From Streptomyces soli (lineage in GTDB: Bacteria > Actinomycetota > Actinomycetes > Streptomycetales > Streptomycetaceae): 64,000 nucleotides of DNA. The position numbers and the translations under genes are program-made. Each line of letters opens with the position of its first letter. Position 1 is the first letter of the stretch. The notes under the pieces were generated by a model. It did not search any database. It was not told the origin of the DNA and was given only the letters and a program-made list of their open reading frames with translations. Shown piece after piece: positions 38,292-42,918 of this stretch. Location: contig NZ_RJVR01000254.1 of the NCBI RefSeq assembly GCF_003999195.1, forward strand, positions 1-64,000, written 5' to 3'.

Positions 38292-39434
38292 TCAGACCGC
38301 CGGCACCGGCTGCGGCGCCGGCGGCCCGACGTAACGGGCGGAGGGCCTTATGATCTTGCTGTCCTCCGCCTGCTCAAGGATGTTCGCACTCCACCCGACG
38401 ACCCGAGCGCAGGCGAACGTCGGAGTGAACATCTCCCTTGGCAGGCCGCAGAGTTCCATGACCACGCCGGCGTAGAACTCCACGTTGATGTGCAATTCGC
38501 GGCCGGGCTTGAGTTCGGCGAGGATCGCTTCGACGCGCTCCTCGACCTGGACGGCGAAGTCGACGAGCGGGCCGCCGAAGCTGCGGGCGATCTCCTTGAG
38601 CATGCGGGAGCGGGGGTCCTCGGTGGTGTATACGGGGTGGCCGAAGCCCATGACGCGGTCACCGGCGAGGACGAGTTCGCGGATCCAGGGGTCGATGCGA
38701 TCCGGGGTGCCGATGGCGCCGAGCGTGTCCAGGGCGCGGCTGGGGGCGCCGCCGTGCAGGGGGCCCGAGAGGGCGCCGATGGCGCCGACGAGGCAGGCGG
38801 CGAGGTCGGCGCCGGTGGAGGTGATGACGCGGGCGGTGAAGGTGGACGCGTTGAAGCCGTGGTCGATGGTGGAGATCAGGTACTGCTCGACCGCCCTGGC
38901 CCGGACGGGGTCGGGCTCCTCGCCGGTGAGCATGTAGAGGTAGTTCTCGGCGTACGGCAGGTCGTCGCGCGGCCCGACCGGCGCCAGGCCCTGGCCAATC
39001 CGGTGCAGGGCGGTGAGCAGGGTGGGCACGGCGGCGCAGGCGGCGATGGCGTCGTCGCGGCGCCGGTCGGCGTCGATGTCGTACAGCGGGCGCAGCCCGG
39101 CCGAGGCCCCGTAGAGGGAGAGCGCGGTACGCAGGCCGGTGAGCGGGCCGCTCAGCGCGCAGGAGCGGGCGATGGCGGGGAGCGCGTCGCTGACGTCGGC
39201 GGGCAGGTGGCGCAGGGCGGCGGTGCGGGCGGTGAAGGCGGCGCGCTCGGCGGCGTCCGGCAGCGTGCCGTGGACCATCAGGTGCCAGACGTCCTCGAAG
39301 GTGCGGGTCCGGGCGAGTTCGACGGCCGAGTACTGGCGGTAGTGGTAGAAGCCCTCGCTGCCGCGTACGTCGCCGATTTCGGTCTCGGTGACGACGACGC
39401 CCTTGAGGCCGCGCGGTACGTCGGTGATCGCCAT
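38292..39434 (-). CDS. Citrate synthase / 2-methylcitrate synthase family enzyme
   Basis: The 380-residue enzyme has the catalytic residues of the family: His in GPLHGGAPSRAL, His in GFGHPVYTTEDPR, Asp near the end of FYAGVVMELCGLP. ATG 39434 follows GGGAGGA, and MAITDVPRGLKGVVVTETEIG is the standard N-terminus; the frame open to 39527 runs through the operator region. It is divergent from an HTH-fused paralogue, which probably controls it via the palindromes between them. Confidence 0.92.
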   Translation of the reverse strand: MAITDVPRGLKGVVVTETEIGDVRGSEGFYHYRQYSAVELARTRTFEDVWHLMVHGTLPDAAERAAFTARTAALRHLPADVSDALPAIARSCALSGPLTGLRTALSLYGASAGLRPLYDIDADRRRDDAIAACAAVPTLLTALHRIGQGLAPVGPRDDLPYAENYLYMLTGEEPDPVRARAVEQYLISTIDHGFNASTFTARVITSTGADLAACLVGAIGALSGPLHGGAPSRALDTLGAIGTPDRIDPWIRELVLAGDRVMGFGHPVYTTEDPRSRMLKEIARSFGGPLVDFAVQVEERVEAILAELKPGRELHINVEFYAGVVMELCGLPREMFTPTFACARVVGWSANILEQAEDSKIIRPSARYVGPPAPQPVPAV

Positions 39435-39468
39435 GGTGGTTCCTCCCTTGATGTTGATGCGACTGTCT

Positions 39469-39507
39469 ATGATTGAATCAATGCCTGTCAACATTGATTC
39501 AATCAAT
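39469..39507. promoter_or_regulatory. Twin palindromic operator between citrate synthase genes
   Basis: Box B (39493-39507) ATTGATTCAATCAAT is a perfect palindrome with 7-bp arms around a C. Box A (39469-39482) ATGATTGAATCAAT is the same motif in inverse reading with one base changed. Centres are about 24 bp apart. The AT-rich boxes stand out in 72% GC surroundings and lie 19 and 35 bases from the two starts, fitting autoregulation by the HTH-fused protein. Confidence 0.75.
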
Positions 39508-39525
39508 GTGTGATGAGATGGGGCC

Positions 39526-40776
39526 ATGGCGGATCAATCAACGAGACTGACCACGCGCGAGGCGGCCGAGCGGCTCGGCGTCAAGCCCGAGACGGTGTAC
39601 GCGTACGTCAGCCGCGGGCTGCTGACCAGCCGTCGCGCGGAAGGCGGGCGCGGCAGCACCTTCGACGCCACGGAGGTCGACGCGCTGGCGCGGCGCGCCG
39701 CCCGGCGTCCGGGGGACGACACACCGGGGTCGGGGGGCACGGGGGCCGGGGCGGTGGGGCCCGTCCGTACCGGCATCACCCTGATAGAGAAGGACCGGTA
39801 CTTCTTCCGCGGCGTCGACGCCACCGAACTGGCCGCGCGCTACGGCTACGAGGAGATCGCGGAGTGGCTGTGGACCGGCGTGATGCGGCCCGGCGCGCGC
39901 TTCACCGCGCCGGAGCAGACGCTGGCCGCCGCCCGGCGCTCCGTCGCCGCACTCCCCGCGCACAGCGGCCCCGTGGACCGGCTGCGGGTCACGGCCATCG
40001 CGGCCGCGGCCGCCGATCCGCTGCGCTTCGACCTGTCGCCGGGGGCCGTACTCGGCAGCGCCCGCAGCCTCATTCCGGCCCTGGTCGACGCGCTGCCACC
40101 GGCCGGGCAGCCGCACCGGGGGGAGGGCCGGCTGGCGTGGCGGCTGTGGTCCCGGCTGACGGAGCGCACTCCTGACGATGCGTCACTGCGTGTGCTGGAC
40201 GCCGCACTCGCCCTGCTCATCGACCACGACCTCGCCGCCTCGACCCTCGCCGTACGGGTCGCCGCGTCCGCCCGGGCCCATCCGTACGCCGTCGTCTCGG
40301 CGGGGCTCGGCGCTCTTGAGGGCCCCCTGCACGGCGCGGCGAGCGGGCTCGCCCACCGCTTCCTGGTCGAGGTGCTGGAACGGGGCGGCGCCGCCCCCGT
40401 CGTCGCGGACCACCTGCGCACCGGGCAGCCCGTGCCGGGGCTGGGCCACCGCCTGTACTCCGGCGACGATCCGCGGGCCCGGATGCTCTTCCGGCTCCTG
40501 GACGCGGTGCCGCAGGCCGCGCCCGCCCTCGCCGCCGCCCGCGACGTCGTCGAGACCGCCGCCCGGCACACCCCGCTGCACGCCAACGTCGACCTCGCCC
40601 TCGCCGTGCTGTCCGTCGCCTCCAACATGCCGGCCGAGGCCGGTGAAACGGTGTTCGCAGTAGGCCGGACCGCCGGCTGGATCGCCCACGCCCTCGAGGA
40701 GTACGCCGAGCCACCCCTGCGCATGCGCCCCGTCGGCCACTACGACGGCCCGAAGCCGCCGCAGCCCCTGCCGTGA
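39526..40776 (+). CDS. HTH-citrate synthase fusion protein
   Basis: The 416-residue protein starts with a MerR/excisionase-type helix-turn-helix (RLTTREAAERLGVKPETVYA, YVSRGLL, residues 5-60), then a Gly-rich linker, and a full citrate-synthase fold from about residue 85. Catalytic motifs are GPLHGAASGLAHRF and GLGHRLYSGDDPRARM; the third, LHANVDLALAVLSVA, keeps Asp. Several Streptomyces carry this fusion next to a plain citrate synthase. Since the HTH is attached to a metabolic enzyme, it may sense oxaloacetate or an acyl-CoA and regulate its divergent partner. Whether it still catalyses is open. Confidence 0.88.
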   Translation: MADQSTRLTTREAAERLGVKPETVYAYVSRGLLTSRRAEGGRGSTFDATEVDALARRAARRPGDDTPGSGGTGAGAVGPVRTGITLIEKDRYFFRGVDATELAARYGYEEIAEWLWTGVMRPGARFTAPEQTLAAARRSVAALPAHSGPVDRLRVTAIAAAAADPLRFDLSPGAVLGSARSLIPALVDALPPAGQPHRGEGRLAWRLWSRLTERTPDDASLRVLDAALALLIDHDLAASTLAVRVAASARAHPYAVVSAGLGALEGPLHGAASGLAHRFLVEVLERGGAAPVVADHLRTGQPVPGLGHRLYSGDDPRARMLFRLLDAVPQAAPALAAARDVVETAARHTPLHANVDLALAVLSVASNMPAEAGETVFAVGRTAGWIAHALEEYAEPPLRMRPVGHYDGPKPPQPLP

Positions 40777-40848: not shown

Positions 40849-41352
40849 ATGACCACCATTGCACACACACCTCCGCAGCCCGTGTCGGCCGGCCTCGACC
40901 TCACCGGCCTGCTGCAGCACGCGGCCCACGTCCTGACCACGCAGACGACAGCGGCGCTCGGCGAGCTGGACATCTCCCCGCGCGGCTTCTGCGTGCTCGC
41001 CCACGCCCTGCCCGGCGGTCTCACCCAGGCGCAGGTGGCGGAGTTGTCCCGGCTCGACAAGACCACGATGGTCGTGACCGTCGACGAGCTGGAGAAGGCC
41101 GGCCTGGCCGAGCGCGTCCCGTCGCCCACCGACCGCAGGGCGCGCATCATCCGGGTCACCGAGGAGGGCCGCAAGACCGTCGAGGCGGGCCGGGAGATCA
41201 CCGAGCACGTGCACGGCGACGTACTCGGCGCACTGCCCGAGCAGGAGCGGGAGGCCTTCGCCTCGGCGCTCGTACGGCTGGTGAACGGGCATCTCGCGGA
41301 GCCCGTGGAGTGCGAGCGTCCGGTGCGGCGGGCACGGCAGTCGCGAAAGTAA
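40849..41352 (+). CDS. MarR-family transcriptional regulator
   Basis: The 167-residue protein has the MarR winged helix: FCVLAHALPGGLTQAQVAEL, SRLDKTTMVVTVDELEKAGL, AERVPSPTDRRARIIRVTEE (DxR wing). It precedes an MFS drug exporter on the same strand and presumably represses it until a ligand binds. The TAA stop lies inside the first copy of a 14-bp tandem repeat. Confidence 0.92.
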   Translation: MTTIAHTPPQPVSAGLDLTGLLQHAAHVLTTQTTAALGELDISPRGFCVLAHALPGGLTQAQVAELSRLDKTTMVVTVDELEKAGLAERVPSPTDRRARIIRVTEEGRKTVEAGREITEHVHGDVLGALPEQEREAFASALVRLVNGHLAEPVECERPVRRARQSRK

Positions 41353-41367
41353 GGTCGCGAAAGTAAG
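41340..41367. repeat. 14-bp tandem duplication at marR stop
   Basis: GTCGCGAAAGTAAG occurs twice in direct succession. The first copy contains the marR stop codon; the second copy would give the same ending, so the duplication is neutral for the protein but changes the spacing to the MFS promoter. Confidence 0.85.
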
Positions 41368-41442
41368 TCCGAAGTAGATAGTCCCATACAAAACAATCTG
41401 GTAGTGTCCTTCCTGGTACTTCGACGACCAGGAGGCGACCCC

Positions 41443-42918
41443 GTGCCCCAGCACGTCCCCATGACCGTTGGCTCACGTTGGCCGACGCTCTTCGTCCTGT
41501 GCGCAGGCACGCTGATGGTGATCCTGGACGGCACCATCGTGAATGTGGCCCTGCCGTCCATCCAGAGCGATCTCGGCTTCTCGCAGTCGAACCTGACCTG
41601 GGTCGTCAACGCCTACCTGATCGCTTTCGGCGGCCTGCTCCTGCTCTCCGGGCGACTCGGTGACCTCCTGGGCCGCAAGCGCGTCTTCATCACGGGGCTC
41701 GGCGTCTTCACCGCCGCCTCACTCCTCTGCGGGGTGTCCACGAGTCCCGGCACGCTGATCGCCGCCCGCTTCCTGCAAGGCGTCGGCGGCGCGATGGCGT
41801 CGGCCGTGACCCTCGGCATGATCGTCGCGATCTTCACGGAACCCCGCGAGCGGTCCAAGGCGATCGCCGTCTACAGCTTCGTCGGCTCGGCGGGCGCGTC
41901 GATCGGGGTCATCGCCGGCGGCGTGCTCACCCAGGTCATCAGCTGGCACTGGATCTTCTTCGTGAACCTCCCCATCGGCGTCGCCGCCGCCCTCCTCGCC
42001 GGGCGCGTTCTCGACCCCGACCAGGGCGCCGGGCTGCGCCGGGGCGCCGACGCGATCGGCGCGGCCCTGGTCACTGCGGCGCTGATGCTGGGCGTCTACA
42101 CCATCGTCAAGGCCGCCGACTTCGGCTGGGCCTCGGCCCGCACCCTCGGCCTCGGCGCGCTGTCGGTCGCACTGCTCGCCGGTTTCGTCCTGCGCCAGGC
42201 GCGCGCCGCGCAACCACTGCTTCCGCTGCGGATCTTCCGGTCGCGCAATGTGTCGGGAGCGAACCTTGTGCAGGCGGTGATGGTGGCGCCGATGTTCGGC
42301 TTCCAGTTCCTGGTCGCGCTGTATCTGCAGCGGGTCCTGGGGTACGACGCCGTCGGCACCGGTATCGCCTTCCTGCCGATCACCCTCGCAATCGGGGCCA
42401 CCTCGCTCTTCCTCGCCGCCCGGCTCATCGCCCGCTTCGCACTGCGGACCGTGATGGCGGCCAGCCTGCTGCTGCTCGCCGGCGGCTTCGTCCTGCTCAC
42501 CCGGCTTCCCGCGCAGGGCGCTTACGGTGCACACGTACTGCCCGCGTTGCTGCTGCTCGGCGCCGGGGCAGGCCTGGCGCTGCCCACGATCACCACGCTC
42601 GCCATGGCGGACGCGACGCCCGGCGACTCGGGGCTCGTGTCCGGCCTGGCCAGCACCACCCAGCAGGTCGGCGGCGCCCTCGGCCTCGCCGTCCTCAGCA
42701 CGCTGGCCGCGTCCCGTACGGACCACCTGCTCGGCTCCGGCCAGGACACCGCCACCGCGCTCACCGGCGGCTACCACCTCGCCTTCGCCACCGGCGCCGG
42801 GCTCATGCTCGCCGCGGCCCTGCTCACCGCGACCGTCCTGCGGACGGGCGGCCGGTCCCCGCATGCCGCTCCGGCCGAGCCCCTCCCCGATCAACACACC
42901 GCCCGCGCCAAGCGATAG
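41443..42918 (+). CDS. MFS multidrug exporter, DHA2 (14-helix) family
   Basis: The 491-residue protein shows DHA2 marks: LCAGTLMVILDGTIVNVALP (D-x-x-x-V-N-V-A-L-P in helix 1), LLLLSGRLGDLLGRKRVFIT, and motif C VGSAGASIGVIAGGVLTQVI then SWHWIFFVNLPIGV. GTG 41443 follows AGGAGG at 7 bases. Controlled by the adjacent MarR gene by position. Pumps out amphiphilic drugs or dyes with proton exchange; substrate unknown. Confidence 0.93.
   Translation: MPQHVPMTVGSRWPTLFVLCAGTLMVILDGTIVNVALPSIQSDLGFSQSNLTWVVNAYLIAFGGLLLLSGRLGDLLGRKRVFITGLGVFTAASLLCGVSTSPGTLIAARFLQGVGGAMASAVTLGMIVAIFTEPRERSKAIAVYSFVGSAGASIGVIAGGVLTQVISWHWIFFVNLPIGVAAALLAGRVLDPDQGAGLRRGADAIGAALVTAALMLGVYTIVKAADFGWASARTLGLGALSVALLAGFVLRQARAAQPLLPLRIFRSRNVSGANLVQAVMVAPMFGFQFLVALYLQRVLGYDAVGTGIAFLPITLAIGATSLFLAARLIARFALRTVMAASLLLLAGGFVLLTRLPAQGAYGAHVLPALLLLGAGAGLALPTITTLAMADATPGDSGLVSGLASTTQQVGGALGLAVLSTLAASRTDHLLGSGQDTATALTGGYHLAFATGAGLMLAAALLTATVLRTGGRSPHAAPAEPLPDQHTARAKR

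Follow-up and report, generated by a model that had tools for sequence, protein, structure and literature searches.

Several known regulators, including MocR/GabR, PutA, BirA and NadR, combine a DNA-binding domain with the fold of a metabolic enzyme that serves as sensor, and many of them are autoregulated; to our knowledge, none of these is built on the citrate synthase fold. Here we analyze a 64,000-nucleotide stretch of the Streptomyces soli genome (assembly GCF_003999195.1, contig NZ_RJVR01000254.1, positions 1 to 64,000; hereafter the window), which contains a gene encoding a helix-turn-helix (HTH) domain fused to a citrate synthase (416 amino acids; 39526..40776, + strand), for which we propose the same plan. 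The fusion gene diverges from a gene for a plain citrate synthase (380 amino acids; 38292..39434, − strand), its presumed target. Comparison of related loci makes it highly likely that the fusion protein is a local, autoregulating one-component transcription factor with a sensor of the citrate synthase fold. It very probably targets both its own gene and the divergent one, because the predicted operator follows the fusion gene across three phyla, even where the neighbor is not a citrate synthase; this lends support to the proposal, made in a preliminary description of this DNA, that one protein controls both promoters. Searches of open-licence PMC papers listed none that presents HTH-citrate synthases as regulators.

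In the MerR family, the N-terminal winged HTH is joined to a variable C-terminal effector domain, and the activators re-twist a long spacer, their operator being a single long dyad within a −35/−10 spacer of 19-20 bp. The fusion protein resembles this family in its N-terminal winged HTH, which scores above the Pfam cut-off, and in its inverted-repeat operator. It differs in that the C-terminal domain is a whole citrate synthase, and in that the predicted operator is an array of half-sites; a core at or upstream of the −35 hexamer of a putative promoter, with a candidate spacer of 16-18 bp, would argue against a location in an elongated spacer. The HTH of known structure nearest in sequence is that of Streptomyces BldC (PDB 6AMA/6AMK), although the match is weak (E-value 0.075; 0.077 for SoxR, 2zhg). 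BldC and the fusion protein share a single winged HTH, but the latter falls outside the BldC family (NF033787, 21.8 bits; cut-off 77). The sites of BldC are 9-bp direct repeats, occupied head to tail (PMC5859096), whereas the half-sites conserved at the fusion loci, as read from sequence, are inverted, which would speak against the same mode of binding.

Citrate and 2-methylcitrate synthases (PF00285; e.g. 3hwk, 6abx and 2c6x) share their fold and active-site residues with the fusion protein, which is distinguished by the additional HTH, a separate clade in the tree and an operator of its own. A regulatory role of a citrate synthase protein, independent of catalysis, has been described for CitA of Caulobacter; the text of that paper (PMC7083601) contains no mention of an HTH. 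The same paper reports that CitC fails to complement Escherichia coli gltA; with this and their consecutive numbering, the citrate synthase genes citB and citC (CCNA_03757/CCNA_03758) resemble the fusion/plain pair and are possibly a proteobacterial version of it.

The HTH-citrate synthase fusion and its partner

The N terminus of the fusion protein matches the Pfam families MerR (PF00376; 31.0 bits, cut-off 28.2; residues 9-42), HTH_17 (PF12728; 30.8 bits, cut-off 27; residues 8-57) and PF13411 (25.9 bits, cut-off 21.6), while residues 80-395 match Citrate_synt (PF00285; 197 bits). The DNA-binding domain (residues 8-57; 39547..39696, + strand) was assigned from the Pfam match, the conservation of the helix and the topology of the AlphaFold2 model, and the citrate synthase domain, the proposed sensor (residues 80-395; 39763..40710, + strand), from the Pfam match, the conserved active-site set and a Foldseek search. 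The model (mean predicted local distance difference test score 86.7) has an ordered HTH with the topology strand-helix-helix-hairpin-helix and a linker of low confidence (residues 61-79), and all 50 best matches listed by Foldseek were citrate or methylcitrate synthases. The protein thus combines a MerR-type winged HTH at its N terminus with the fold and the catalytic/oxaloacetate residues of a citrate synthase, and this fusion of a DNA-binding domain to an enzyme fold is accompanied by a conserved site at its own gene. In a tree of 60 sequences, the 42 fusions grouped in a single clade (100/99), from which 16 plain synthases were separate.

Residues were counted in 193 unique fusion proteins (that of the window included, plasmid-borne relatives left out). 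Positions T23, Y25, Y27, S29, R30 and G31 of the recognition helix are invariant in all 193. The oxaloacetate-binding and catalytic positions are kept almost as strictly: H234, R317, R381 and R401 (the last located just past the Pfam match) in 193 proteins, H269 and D356 in 192, and H308 in 188. We take this set to be equivalent to H238, H274, H320, R329, D375, R401 and R421 of pig citrate synthase. Its conservation makes it plausible that oxaloacetate, acyl-coenzyme A (acyl-CoA) or citrate is sensed. A Paraburkholderia member (L214) carries Leu at the place of H274, which may mean that catalysis is dispensable in some members.

Within Pfam the plain synthase matches PF00285 only (369 bits); it also matches NCBIfam PRK12350 (338 bits, cut-off 332). 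Its genome (9.4 Mb in 412 contigs) encodes four PF00285 proteins: the divergent pair, the top scorer (contig C104) and one on contig C39. The catalytic Asp is replaced by Glu in 174 of the 174 plain partners in which the motif was found (the pattern did not match 11 of 185); the variants are NVEF (165), NVEY (8) and NLEW (1), the first being shared with the Bacillus subtilis enzyme 2c6x.

A conserved half-site array beside the fusion gene

The divergent genes are separated by 91 bp (39435..39525), with a GC content of 45% against 71% for the window; this region, defined by its sequence and by comparison in 109 relatives, holds the predicted operator and presumably both promoters. When positions were re-read in the window, the two genes, their divergence and the two AT-rich palindromes described earlier were all recovered in place: ATGATTGAATCAAT on the plain-synthase side (39469-39482) and ATTGATTCAATCAAT on the fusion side (39493-39507). 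Their spacing, previously given as about 24 bp, is exactly that, start to start. The two palindromes contain a perfect 14-bp inverted repeat (39470-39483/39492-39505). TGATTSAATCA occurs twice in the window, both times within the intergenic region, and TTGATTSAATCAA once.

The intergenic regions compared were those of 29 of the 30 fetched loci of the genus (the contig-end piece L030 was left out) and of 80 named loci (the best 80 of 264 relatives, nearly all Streptomyces); the 109 regions are related sequences and not independent. On the fusion side, the dyad TTGAY-N2-4-RTCAA is present in 103/109 regions (mean of 0.3 and maximum of 3 of 109 after dinucleotide shuffling), its strict form TTGATTNAATCAA in 76/109, and the core RTCAAYRTTGAY in 108/109. 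In some relatives the dyad is kept with changes in both arms, e.g. TTGACTGGTCAA in L024 and L032. The exact palindrome of the plain-synthase side is found in 1/109 regions, that of the window alone; elsewhere this side carries a TTGAY half-site (103/109) and, less often, a looser TTGA-N0-3-TCAA (25/109). The matching twin operator of the preliminary description is therefore not borne out: conservation of the palindromes in relatives that keep the gene pair holds for the fusion side and fails for the plain-synthase side. As judged from this comparison, TTGAY/RTCAA half-sites (h1-h4) arrayed around a 12-bp core, rather than a pair of palindromes, make up the conserved unit. In the window, the first palindrome is conserved solely as the half-site at 39473-39477 (h1), which reads TTGAA here and TTGAY in most relatives. 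The core, GTCAACATTGAT (consensus RTCAAYRTTGAY; 39487..39498), is a conserved exact 12-mer composed of h2 (GTCAA, 39487-39491) and h3 (39494-39498), and h3 together with h4 (39502-39506) forms the palindrome conserved across loci, TTGATTCAATCAA (39494..39506).

Base frequencies at 198 sites (in which the core letters TCAA and TTGA were preset by the search pattern) showed three informative blocks: the 12-mer, the next RTCAA and the upstream TTGAC. Between the core and the half-site that follows there are 3 bp in 126 sites, 4 bp in 18 and 6 bp in 16, other lengths being rarer. Tandem 12-mers 15-16 bp apart were seen in the genomes G009 and G028 and at the loci L203 and L204.

The site is closely associated with the fusion gene. 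Among 197 whole-genome and named loci, compared with control windows from elsewhere in the same loci, the 350 bp preceding the fusion gene contain the exact core in 182 (4/3342 controls), TTGAY-N2-7-RTCAA in 183 (10/3342) and both together in 174 (1/3342). The set was extended to 207 loci by ten plasmid-borne relatives, the operator being scored as a core with its center loosened to YV (RTCAAYVTTGAY) or as TTGAY-N2-7-RTCAA. Within the same distance, 182 of the 185 loci that have a divergent plain synthase (partial synthases included) carry it, as do 18 of the 22 that lack one, against 28/6776 half-overlapping control windows of these loci, 2/180 low-GC windows and averages of 0.7 (of 185) and 0.12 (of 22) after shuffling. 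In three paired loci (L035, L042 and L049) only a fragment of the plain synthase remains next to the operator. Two of the paired exceptions, L103 and L193, have one mismatch each. The operator was seen in at least one locus of each family code sampled, save f56 (0/1).

The operator is also rare elsewhere in the genomes. Its full pattern, with up to 2 mismatches, has one site in the genome of the window, and eight relatives of the genus carry one to four 12-mers each, so that a few further targets elsewhere are possible. No full site was detected in ten fusion-less family genomes tried, nor in G042 and G079, which have the fusion without the partner; G106 has two, the second of which precedes a complete plain synthase with no adjacent fusion gene. 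Since the full site is single in its own genome and absent from the fusion-less ones, the fusion looks like a dedicated local rather than a global regulator at the stringency used.

The genes SCO5831 and SCO5832 of Streptomyces coelicolor are probably the counterparts of the fusion and of the plain synthase, respectively, a correspondence drawn from annotation and a shared ACTGTC block. In three papers (PMC9739823, PMC7324645 and PMC8981147) SCO5831 is termed citrate synthase-like and its abundance or expression is reported. PMC12323332 describes a shift by MtrA of a probe from between sco5831 (citA3) and sco5832 (citA4), with the site TTGACTTAACTGTCCA; this site is the conserved ACTGTC block, and the positions given for it, −92 and −16, put SCO5832 on the plain-synthase side. 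MtrA binding was rejected as an account of the palindrome, since it concerns this different block.

Several observations weigh against a regulatory role of the fusion protein. The fusion loci are phylogenetically clustered, so that the counts given above are not independent. L202, a paired locus, has no operator beside the fusion gene; among the unpaired loci, L170 and L186 have degenerate operators, and in L134 and L136 (both Streptomycetaceae) the fusion with its HTH is kept while partner and operator are both missing. Half-site h2, and in loci of the family coded f58 perhaps h3, could partly be −35 elements. Another regulator, MtrA, acts in the SCO5831-SCO5832 region, and intact catalytic residues, seen in nearly all members, would be no less expected if the protein worked as an enzyme. 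The fusion might thus be an ordinary auxiliary citrate synthase with an incidental HTH, the palindrome being bound by MtrA or another factor; in line with this, the two S. coelicolor genes are treated as the citrate synthases citA3 and citA4 in PMC12323332, and proteomics places SCO5831 among the tricarboxylic acid cycle enzymes (PMC8981147). We regard this explanation as quite unlikely, given that the recognition helix is invariant in 193/193 proteins, that the site remains with the fusion gene across phyla despite changes of neighbor, that it is missing from the ten fusion-less genomes, and that MtrA is reported to bind at the ACTGTC block and not at the TTGATTNAATCAA block.

Candidate promoters and predicted mode of regulation

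A scan of the region with a strict sigma-70 consensus found no promoter, and for this reason the following assignments are to be read as candidates. The plain-synthase promoter may consist of a −35 hexamer TTGACA (39486..39491, − strand), which contains h2 and is suggested by sequence and conservation, and a −10 hexamer TAGACA (39464..39469, − strand) at a spacing of 16 bp, or alternatively GACAGT (39462-39467, − strand) at 18 bp. Of the 94 regions that fit the anchor pattern (15/109 were unmatched), 91 have ACTGTC and TGTCAA 24 bp apart and 3 have them 23 bp apart, and the candidate −10 overlaps the block given as the MtrA site in S. coelicolor in PMC12323332. For the fusion gene, a candidate −10 (TGAGAT; 39514..39519, + strand) is found 6 nt ahead of the ATG; the transcript would then be leaderless. 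In 97/109 regions a TACGGTG block is located within 12 nt of the start codon; the window has just the TGAGAT variant.

These assignments bear on the possibility that the conserved block is mere core promoter, i.e. back-to-back −35 elements TTGACA and TTGATT. Such a reading would account for the minus-strand TTGACA of h2, whose distance to a candidate −10 is fixed, and for several f58 loci in which h3, by eye, precedes a −10-like hexamer of the fusion gene by about 17 bp. It leaves unexplained the conservation of h4, which is outside both −35 hexamers. Moreover, h3 begins 19 to 105 nt before the TACGGTG block (97/109 regions) and never at the 22-24 nt expected of a −35 element, so h3 does not merely serve as −35 element of the fusion promoter, and the exact core, with a single occurrence in the 9.4-Mb genome, is far too rare for a general motif. 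On the grounds of this rarity and spacing a general promoter motif was rejected, and a pure core-promoter origin of the block appears highly improbable.

The mechanism that we propose for the fusion protein as a transcription factor is as follows. Two MerR-type winged HTHs would be held as a symmetric pair by the citrate synthase fold, which is presumed to be dimeric, and this pair would bind the TTGAY/RTCAA array (39473-39506) with its core at 39487-39498. The protein would thereby regulate its own gene and the divergent plain synthase gene. Repression is the most likely mode, given that h2 falls on the candidate −35 of the synthase promoter and h1 within its spacer. Occupancy of the array would block this promoter, and the fusion gene, whose start codon is 20 nt beyond h4 in the window, would be repressed as well. 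The citrate synthase domain would sense oxaloacetate or another 2-oxo acid and/or acyl-CoA, and ligand binding would free the protein from the DNA or re-order it there, so that synthase expression follows substrate supply. We consider repression fairly probable, and it seems slightly less certain, yet still reasonable to expect, that the ligand belongs to the substrates and products of citrate synthase.

The opposite sign of regulation, activation of the divergent gene in a MerR-like or class-I-like manner, would agree with the type of the HTH and with a core located at, or a short way upstream of, the candidate synthase −35. The candidate spacer of 16-18 bp is, however, not the long spacer of MerR-type promoters, and h1 and h2 overlap the putative promoter itself; activation therefore seems rather unlikely, though less so than the auxiliary-enzyme and core-promoter explanations weighed above.

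If the fusion protein is indeed a regulator, a class of genes listed in annotations as surplus citrate synthases (such as citA3 of S. coelicolor) would represent a widespread family of transcription factors with a sensor of the citrate synthase fold, and the presence of two extra divergent "citrate synthases" in many actinobacteria would be explained. Such a regulator may read the supply of oxaloacetate or acyl-CoA, and its short predicted operator would be directly testable by gel shift.

Distribution and genomic neighborhood of the fusion

The fusion is present in 34/35 genomes of the genus, being absent only from G020 (with contig-end pieces in G015, G016 and G032), and in 78/150 genomes of the family. 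In the class sample, 65/394 genomes and 18/138 genera match it at E ≤ 1e-35, including three (G347, G386 and G483) with only 33-34% matches beginning at residue 50 or later, which may be plain synthases; in the phylum sample it is matched by 28/296 genomes, G613 only across residues 184-402. The four samples overlap. The plain partner (E ≤ 1e-120) occurs in 69/150 family genomes, which divide into 68 with both genes, 10 with the fusion alone (two of them, G032 and G058, matching over only part of the fusion gene), 1 with the partner alone and 71 with neither. The divergent arrangement was found in all 80 named loci.

Where the divergent plain synthase is lacking (22 loci), several other genes occupy its place. 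An HMGL-like/homocitrate-synthase-like gene is found in eight (L163, L164, L166, L186, L187, L209, L206 and L212) and a divergent DUF2332 gene in five (L178-L181 and L183), with a distant DUF2332 homologue further off in L169. In L207 and L213 the divergent gene encodes a 2-hydroxyacid dehydrogenase and precedes an FAH hydrolase gene; in L214 it encodes an FAH hydrolase, with a cupin gene next in line. L215 has a CoA transferase III in this position and L170 an FAD-dependent oxidoreductase. The neighbor in L204 has no assignment, and that in L134 and L136 looks like a CobW-type GTPase from a reading of its sequence. Retention of the operator while the divergent gene changes is the behavior of divergent local regulators. 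The substrates of several of these enzyme families are 2-oxo acids or CoA thioesters, as would suit a sensor of the citrate synthase type.

A wider search extended the pattern to other phyla. Among the 30 matches listed, 11 keep the HTH part, and 10 of these 11 (from Deinococcus, Proteobacteria and other actinobacteria) have TTGAY/RTCAA half-sites just upstream, although L211, L213, L214 and L215 have only partial arrays. Records with half-sites belong to Deinococcus, Comamonas, Cupriavidus necator, Niveispirillum, Paraburkholderia, Tsukamurella, Embleya and Nonomuraea. The eleventh, a plasmid-borne member from Cupriavidus oxalaticus (L224, 2483-3727), divergent from a porin gene followed by an MFS transporter gene, has the helix YAYVGRKG instead of YAYVSRG; upstream of it there is no array, only isolated TTGAC and GTCAA and the 18-bp palindrome ATATATGGATCCATATAT. 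This joint change of helix and site would match the co-evolution predicted for a helix and its operator, in a single case. As a tentative extension, which we think somewhat less likely than not to hold in full, the fusions may form a cross-phylum family of factors with one operator code, TTGAY/RTCAA, and a competent active site used as a switch: binding or turnover of a 2-oxo acid and acyl-CoA would close the domains, alter DNA binding and control diverse 2-oxo-acid/acyl-CoA operons.

Directly downstream of the fusion gene in the window (40849-42918) lie genes for a MarR-type regulator and a transporter resembling an MFS drug exporter. A MarR gene like that of the window is located within the fetched flank of only 3/207 fusion loci, and MarR was accordingly rejected as a conserved binder of the site.

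In two genomes of Streptomycetaceae (G076 and G106; L216-L221 and L223) the plain synthase is split near residue 31-34, its C-terminal part being located on the same contig at a distance of approx. 163 kb and 115 kb, respectively. No exact repeats of at least 16 bp common to the fetched flanks of the split synthases were found. In G106, the second, full plain synthase, with its own operator, sits between the two parts of the split one.

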